Shown here piece after piece: positions 12,988 through 20,911 of a DNA stretch of 26,391 nt (the first letter of the stretch is position 1; each line of letters opens with the position of its first letter). Both the position numbers and the translations under genes were made by a program. The notes beneath the pieces were generated by a model. The model worked only from the letters and a program-made list of their open reading frames with translations. It did no database searches and was not told the DNA's origin. Source of the DNA: a virus; the IMG/VR virus record IMGVR_UViG_3300032070_000026, positions 1 through 26,391 of that record. The stretch is one strand, 5' to 3'.

Positions 12988-13512
12988 TTAACCGTCAATT
13001 TCTAACATAGGACCGTTCCTCTCTTCTGTCAAGGACGAAAAATATTCGTTTAATCCTAATCTTTTTATTTTTTGCTCAAGTCGTGTATGATAACCTTGAT
13101 TGCAAATTAAAAGATTTTGATTTCTATCATCATCCTTTTTCCCATCTATATGATGAACCATTTCTCCTTTTTTGGTATTCAAACAACGACCAAGGGCTTT
13201 TTCCACCACAAGATGAGAACGACGAACATATCCTAGTTTATTGACATTGGGATGATCGGATTTCAAAACGAAAATACGTCCATCTTTATTTATAATCCCG
13301 CCCTTCCAAGTTGCACATTTTTCCCTGACATTAACTTGTCTTTCTTTATGCGTTTTGCTTATTTTTTCCCTTATTTCTTTTGGATAATGTTTTCCTTCCC
13401 AATAACCTTTGTGCCCTTTCAACGCATCACTTCTTTTTTTTATAGTCTCTTCTGATTGTTTTTTCCCTTTATGGGATTCACTCATTCTTCTTCTTGTTTC
13501 TTCAGAAATCAT
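12988..13512 (-). CDS. HNH homing endonuclease with NUMOD3 motifs
   Basis: The product is 174 residues. The N-terminal third carries repeated NUMOD3-type DNA-binding motifs (SEETRRRMSESHKGKKQSEE, then KEIREKISKTHKERQ). A WKGG motif is at 69-72. The HNH core follows, with VHHIDGKKDDDRNQN around residues 119-133 and a downstream His at 142. Such proteins nick or cut DNA and spread themselves. It sits between portal and scaffold, which are normally adjacent. Its DNA is clearly more AT-rich than its neighbours, suggesting recent acquisition. The frame is intact and the SD is weak. It is free-standing, with no intron signals seen around it. Confidence 0.85.
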   Translation of the reverse strand: MISEETRRRMSESHKGKKQSEETIKKRSDALKGHKGYWEGKHYPKEIREKISKTHKERQVNVREKCATWKGGIINKDGRIFVLKSDHPNVNKLGYVRRSHLVVEKALGRCLNTKKGEMVHHIDGKKDDDRNQNLLICNQGYHTRLEQKIKRLGLNEYFSSLTEERNGPMLEIDG

Positions 13513-13526
13513 CTTTTACCCCGTTT

Positions 13527-19940: not shown

Positions 19941-20300
19941 CTATGACCTTAAGACACAGACGCCGTCCTTTAAAAAATCAAGTGCCTCATCCAGCTTCTT
20001 AAAGAACGTTTCCCCGAATTCCTGCTTCTTGCCGGCTTCTCTCCTGCCCTCTGCATCAAGATTGTCTTTCGGATAATAGACTATCCAGCCATTCTCGATC
20101 TTGTGAATTGTATAGTTTATGTCAACCTCCCATAGTTTTTTACCTTCGGTAAGTGAACGGATGGACCTATAAAGGTCGAGATCATATTTCCATATTACAA
20201 TCGCCGCCTTTGACCAAAGCGGTTCCGTCCGGATTCTTATAAACCGTTCTAATCGTTCAATCTCTTCATCAACCCTTGTCAGGACTTCTTTTCTTGTCAT
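19941..20300 (-). CDS. Hypothetical early protein, 119 aa, promoter-proximal
   Basis: The product is 119 residues. A charged helix at the N-terminus (MTRKEVLTRVDEEIERLERF) is followed by an aromatic beta region (GKKLWEVDINYTIHKIENGW) and a C-terminal helix (FFKKLDEALDFLKDG). No family is recognised. ATG 20300 has GAGG upstream and lies about 15 bases downstream of the -10 element of the minus-strand early promoter, giving a very short leader. Confidence 0.65.
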   Translation of the reverse strand: MTRKEVLTRVDEEIERLERFIRIRTEPLWSKAAIVIWKYDLDLYRSIRSLTEGKKLWEVDINYTIHKIENGWIVYYPKDNLDAEGRREAGKKQEFGETFFKKLDEALDFLKDGVCVLRS

Positions 20301-20315
20301 CGTCAGCCTCTACCC

Positions 20316-20344
20316 ACTATCACGATTACAGGGCCCCATGTCAA
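20316..20344 (-). promoter_or_regulatory. Early promoter, minus strand
   Basis: On the minus strand there is a perfect TTGACA (20344-20339), a 17-base spacer and GATAGT (20321-20316, 4 of 6 to TATAAT). It is positioned about 15 bases upstream of ATG 20300. It matches the plus-strand promoter at 21 of 29 positions, including both hexamers in full, which makes chance unlikely. Confidence 0.75.
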
Positions 20345-20442
20345 CCCACTACCCTAAAAATTCCTAGAAAATTGATGAGAAAATGACATAATCACAATCC
20401 TTCCCCAGTACCAACTATTCCCTCAGGGGTACGGCCTCTTTC

Positions 20443-20570
20443 TAATAGTACTATTATCTAAGATAGTTGTATCTATTTACTATTATGAATAGTAAGTGAT
20501 AATCTTAATAGTAATATTCTATTATATAATAGATATTGTGTAGGATGATTAATAGTAGGGTGATTAATAG
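20443..20570. repeat. TAATAG/CTATTA palindrome and direct-repeat array
   Basis: Eight exact copies of the hexamer occur in 128 bases: TAATAG at 20443, 20506, 20527, 20550 and 20565, and CTATTA at 20451, 20480 and 20519. They form a perfect 14-bp palindrome (20443-20456), an 8-bp inverted repeat with a 3-base spacer (20477-20495) and a perfect 16-bp palindrome (20518-20533). A 10-bp direct repeat TGATTAATAG is at 20546 and 20561. The arrangement looks like multiple sites for a dimeric DNA-binding protein. Confidence 0.75.
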
Positions 20571-20684
20571 AATGTGTTCAACAGGTATCAATAGATATCC
20601 AACAGATAATAAGTATTCACTAAGTACAATCTGCCTTACATTACACTATAGCGACAACAAGGTTATGGATTCTTTTCAGTCAGG

Positions 20685-20713
20685 TTGACAGGTGGGCCGG
20701 ATTCCGTGATAGT
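20685..20713 (+). promoter_or_regulatory. Early promoter, plus strand
   Basis: A perfect TTGACA (20685-20690), a 17-base spacer and GATAGT (20708-20713) lie about 15 bases before the first plus-strand gene at 20729. The spacer shares a GGxCC core and CGT end with the minus-strand partner. The host sigma-70 holoenzyme is the likely user. Confidence 0.75.
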
Positions 20714-20728
20714 AGTTGAGACCGAAAG

Positions 20729-20911
20729 ATGGAAGCATCCAAACAGACTGAACGAAAGCCGAGGATAGTGATCCGGCGGCAGCCGGACGCCCGTCTTACT
20801 AAGATGATGCTAAACGCTGTAGATAAGCGGCTTTCAAAAACCGAGAGGGCGTTATGGCAGAAACAGGCATGGATGACGGCGAAAAGAATCGAAGGGGGAG
20901 GGTATAATTGA
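20729..20911 (+). CDS. First early-operon gene, 60 aa basic protein
   Basis: The product is 60 residues and strongly basic (KPRIVIRRQPDARLTKMM and later WQKQAWMTAKR), probably helical. The ATG is only about 10 bases after the expected transcription start, and no clear SD is visible. The message may be nearly leaderless. It overlaps the next gene by one base (TGATG). Small basic early proteins often bind nucleic acid or host factors, which is inference here. Confidence 0.55.
   Translation: MEASKQTERKPRIVIRRQPDARLTKMMLNAVDKRLSKTERALWQKQAWMTAKRIEGGGYN

Follow-up and report, generated by a model that had tools for sequence, protein, structure and literature searches.

The closest described counterparts of the locus analyzed here are phage operators and replication origins. 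In phage 186, seven Apl sites at pR–pL mediate cooperative repression of both promoters (PMC7498355). These promoters face each other, and the sites are direct repeats placed every 10-11 bp (PMC7498355). In the origins of phage lambda and of iteron plasmids, initiator-binding repeats form an ordered array that adjoins strongly AT-rich DNA, with a replication operon on one side (PMC5043065). In P22, the operator recognized by the ribbon-helix-helix repressor Arc is built on the box TAGA (PMC12645479). Mycobacteriophage stoperators are many copies of one repressor site per phage genome, asymmetric and distributed genome-wide (PMC9283540).

The 26,391-bp stretch of DNA examined, hereafter the window, is one incomplete virus record from an uncultured tailed phage. 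The site cluster analyzed in it shares something with each of these systems: several putative regulator sites clustered between two phage promoters, as in 186; repeated sites next to strongly AT-rich DNA with a replication operon on one side, as in lambda and iteron plasmids; a small phage protein nearby, a TAG core and approximately one-turn spacing in the central palindrome, as at the Arc operator; and many copies of one site, as for stoperators. It also departs from each. Unlike in phage 186, the promoters face away from one another, each is some 100 bp from the sites, and the sites differ in spacing and orientation; none of the family matches to the window's proteins points to an Apl relative. 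Compared with the ordered origins, the sites are irregular and the initiator is only a candidate for binding them. The repeated word is ATAGTA rather than TAGA, and the protein of 60 aa nearby has no match among ribbon-helix-helix families or structures. Whereas stoperators are scattered and asymmetric, the copies here lie in one region and are mostly palindromic. The kind of system is already known; the ATAGTA site family was not found in a limited literature search. An earlier note on this DNA recognized no standard family of such sites. The features discussed below are as follows:

19941 to 20300, minus strand: first leftward gene, 119 aa, no assigned function
20316 to 20344, minus strand: left outward promoter, TTGACA-17-GATAGT; the next base is G in the window and A in L006, L012 and L002
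20379 to 20392, plus strand: conserved 14-mer GAAAATGACATAAT, identical in both phages compared
20415 to 20431, no strand: conserved CTATTCCCTnAGGGGTA with a short dyad, CCCTnAGGG, from alignment with L002
20443 to 20570, no strand: ATAGTA/TAATAG array, 79% AT, the least stable duplex of the window
20443 to 20456, no strand: perfect palindrome TAATAGTACTATTA, two overlapping convergent AATAGTA; no aligned counterpart in L002
20477 to 20495, no strand: central palindrome TTACTATT-ATG-AATAGTAA (TACTATT-N3-AATAGTA), half-site centers about 10 bp apart
20506 to 20533, no strand: split inverted repeat TAATAG/CTATTA (20506/20519) and palindrome TCTATTATATAATAGA (20518-20533)
20540 to 20569, plus strand: two 15-bp direct repeats GTAGGRTGATTAATA (20540-20554 and 20555-20569), 14/15 identical
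20579 to 20608, plus strand: imperfect direct repeats CAACAGGTA/CAACAGATA, 21 bp apart
20685 to 20713, plus strand: right outward promoter, TTGACA-17-GATAGT; the next base is A, giving ATAGTA
20729 to 20911, plus strand: first rightward gene, 60 aa
25599 to 26390, plus strand: DnaD/O-like replication initiator or helicase loader, extending to the record end

The array occupies a 428-bp gap flanked by two genes, one starting at 20300 and reading leftward, the other starting at 20729 and reading rightward. Protein scans place terminase, portal, head and internal virion proteins among the leftward genes, and RecT, a Cas4-type exonuclease and the DnaD/O-like initiator among the rightward ones. A search of viral_contigs yielded three related contigs: 3300044799_000425 (represented by L002, L008, L010 and L013), 3300032118_000085 (L006, L009 and L014) and 3300037493_004623 (L011 and L012). 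Public phage records contain no DNA match to the region, and searches of the same records with the terminase and initiator returned distant matches only; GTDB genomes yielded no relative via terminase or portal. Among the three contigs, only 3300044799_000425 (L002) holds the whole syntenic gap, which leaves a single comparison as the basis for conservation of the array. L012 starts shortly before the left promoter, while L006 and L014 match the window at 99% identity as far as 20363, beyond which they continue into unrelated DNA with its own small ORF. In L006 (1-416, against window 20363), a contig with 99% identity to the window over the leftward genes, this ORF is 74 aa long, and an inverted repeat, CCCACTACC/GGTAGTGGG, spans the switch point. 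The switch may be a prophage junction, a recombination event or a chimeric assembly.

The earlier note had reported eight exact copies of TAATAG/CTATTA in 128 bases, a density said to exceed chance even in AT-rich DNA. Both statements hold. Eight copies lie in 20443-20570 (at 20443, 20451(-), 20480(-), 20506, 20519(-), 20527, 20550 and 20565), and counting both strands of the entire 26,391 bp gives 11, leaving three in the remaining 26.2 kb. None of 5000 dinucleotide-preserving shuffles of the 128-bp, 79% AT segment reaches eight TAATAG (mean 0.70, maximum 5). When any hexamer is allowed, 0.54% of shuffles hold some hexamer at least eight times. The TAATAG excess is therefore real, but with a post hoc probability of about 0.005 that does not yet allow for the choice of segment, which was made by eye. 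The base composition and this figure count toward a rival reading of the stretch as largely neutral AT-rich filler, in which slippage and drift would have raised similar words around one conserved palindrome of some function.

A shorter core proved the better-supported unit. All six AATAGTA in the window fall inside the array, and ATAGTA occurs six times in the window's 170-bp core and six times in the L002 core, making it the most frequent hexamer of the two together; the TAATAG hexamer is probably a by-product of this unit in an AT-rich stretch. Six ATAGTA in either core alone were never obtained in 3000 shuffles. A shared hexamer as frequent as ATAGTA appeared in 1 of 3000 paired shuffles, a test that shuffles two homologous regions independently and so overstates significance for a conserved pair; the six-and-six counts are likewise not independent trials, because the regions share ancestry. 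The repeated palindromic word is thus above chance in the window and kept in a relative, the one relative compared.

Alignment with that relative shows where conservation lies. By blastn, window 20316-20731 matches L002 at 68% identity (E 3e-25). The central palindrome is 82% identical, against 53% and 45% for the array on either side, and the right promoter stretch (20683-20731) is 90% identical; further identical blocks include the 14-mer listed above, CTATTCCCT and TACATTACA. Only the right -10 site and the pair of half-sites in the central palindrome occupy the same aligned columns in both phages. The four other core ATAGTA sites of each phage do not, and whether they moved or arose anew hinges on an alignment that is loose in the array stretch. 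A 12-bp part of 20506-20533 is a gap in L002, and at about the place of the imperfect direct repeats L002 has ATATCATCAGGTA-like repeats 19 bp apart. The arrangement given earlier, with two perfect palindromes, a split inverted repeat and a 15-base direct repeat, was reproduced, although that list lacked TTACTATT-ATG-AATAGTAA, the only array element that keeps its aligned position. For neutral filler, the low identity of most of the array (45-53%) is as expected. The preserved central palindrome is not, nor is the equal lead of ATAGTA in both cores (six and six) when most positions differ, and we consider this explanation unlikely. Because the central palindrome is conserved and the number of sites is kept while other positions differ, the data support a protein-bound cluster. 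The window contains no known RNA family, and single-strand DNA folding of the array gives a z of -1.6.

The twin promoters described as flanking the array are real as consensus matches and are conserved in L002. Two near-identical outward copies of the form GGTTGACA-N14-CGTGATAGT(A) are present in the window, and every one of the four contigs has GGTTGACA-N14-CGTGATAGT at the left or right gap end. In both phages, coordinate arithmetic puts the array midpoint no more than about 10 bases from the point halfway between the two -35 boxes. Most promoter copies carry ATAGTA at the -10 position. That the array and the -10 boxes share this word is suggestive of one recognizing protein, though the match may be coincidence, as -10 boxes are AT-rich. 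The conserved 14-mer at 20379-20392 is a possible third promoter, with an extended -10 (TGaCATAAT) reading into the array. Promoter-pattern matches in four other viral contigs (L016, L018, L019 and L020) were dismissed as chance, as these have no DNA similarity to the window; in L016, L018 and L019 the matches fall inside one coding-like sequence.

Taken together, these data suggest that the cluster is most probably an ordinary type of control region, comprising regulator sites and possibly a replication origin. We regard a bidirectional control region, with ATAGTA sites bound by a predicted regulator, as the best reading of the sequence, and give it about even credence. The segment would then form the protein-bound center of a conserved control region working in two directions. 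From it, two near-copies of one promoter would read outward, leftward into an operon leading to the packaging and structural genes and rightward into an operon for replication and recombination. The ATAGTA half-sites would be occupied by a DNA-binding protein, probably a dimer encoded by the phage, which would fill the conserved palindrome TACTATT-N3-AATAGTA first and adjoining sites thereafter. The same core within GATAGTA would bring the protein to the -10 boxes, such that both operons would be repressed or timed together. The cluster, the promoter-like twin sequences, the conserved central palindrome and the kept site number are observed directly; we infer promoter activity, protein binding, the use of one protein for array and promoters, and the direction of the effect. 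Several observations stand against the control reading. A distance of about 100 bp separates the array from each -35 box, which is unusual for simple repression; the spacing and orientation of the sites vary; and a single relative has the complete region, the other two contigs stopping or switching at the left promoter. No repressor or other regulator gene was identified in the window, itself an incomplete record.

The first rightward gene encodes a candidate for the binding protein. The core of its 60-aa product shows 15 synonymous vs 3 non-synonymous codon differences from its relative. The structural model (pLDDT 73.8, pTM 0.37) predicts an extended N-terminus followed by helices at residues 21-34 and 37-55, with no strand in the monomer. 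This is the order of elements in ribbon-helix-helix proteins, and the protein is a weak candidate for that class. Searches with its sequence gave no match in Pfam, PHROGs or PDB sequences, and Foldseek gave no structure match.

The array may alternatively, or in combination with an operator role, be a replication origin, with the AT-rich segment as strand-opening element; we hold this as a tentative possibility. The DnaD/O-like initiator (25599) or another protein would bind either the palindromes or the CAnCAGGTA direct repeats alongside, with outward transcription aiding strand opening. The least stable 120 bp of the window is 20438-20557 (z 5.1), and the matching stretch is the least stable of L013 (z 5.8), a piece covering 21.6 kb of the relative's 23.9-kb contig; promoter regions, however, are also commonly AT-rich. 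Repeats next to AT-rich DNA are also the arrangement that a review describes for phage lambda and for iteron plasmids (PMC5043065), and RecT, a Cas4-type exonuclease and an O/DnaD-like initiator are products of the rightward operon. Within the initiator gene no iteron family was evident, and therefore the origin could be elsewhere, the array included. Direct repeats occur as two copies only (15 bp; 9 bp at 21 bp). Against an origin, the ATAGTA sites are irregularly spaced and of mixed orientation. A DnaA box, allowing up to one mismatch, is absent from 20300-20728; such boxes are present in many iteron origins and are not required in lambda. The flip in strand skew at 20.4 kb arises mainly at first codon positions; four-fold sites do not show it, coding-strand GC skew there being -0.12 in leftward genes and 0.00 in rightward genes. 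As the flip follows codon position and coding direction, strand skew was rejected as origin evidence. Nothing ties the initiator to the array sites, and its structure model (mean pLDDT 35.8) is too poor to be used. Of the iteron or origin proposal in the earlier note, the duplex instability fits, whereas the DnaA-box and four-fold-site results speak against it or are neutral; of its wider proposal that a dimeric repressor, initiator or partition protein binds here, the cluster of protein-bound sites is supported, but operator and origin are not separable with these data.

The partition variant, a centromere-like site of a plasmid-living phage, draws on the clustered palindromes only. No ParA or ParB match was found among the proteins scanned, which represent part of the genes of an incomplete record, and we regard this explanation as highly improbable. 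It is also improbable, if less remotely so, that one regulator reads ATAGTA in both the melting-prone array and the -10 boxes, coupling the start of replication with two-way transcription, a proposal that supposes an undescribed phage group.

If binding to the array were shown, the locus would be the control region, and perhaps also the origin, of a group of phages represented here by four metagenome contigs only. Short, specific targets for simple binding and reporter tests are offered by the palindrome that is conserved and by the shared promoter word. L002 carries two exact copies of the promoter and two variants, at about 2279, 3130, 3430 and 3802, one variant before a C-5 methyltransferase-like gene and the other within its 3' end. 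These copies and variants lie at accessory-gene boundaries, including those of the methyltransferase-like gene, and the repeated promoter thereby provides a handle on gene acquisition by these phages. Elsewhere in the window, a NUMOD3/HNH endonuclease gene at 12990-13526 separates the portal gene from the scaffold-like gene, within a stretch of 34% GC. L012, L013 and L014 lack the gene at this position, and a few bases link the flanking sequences instead.
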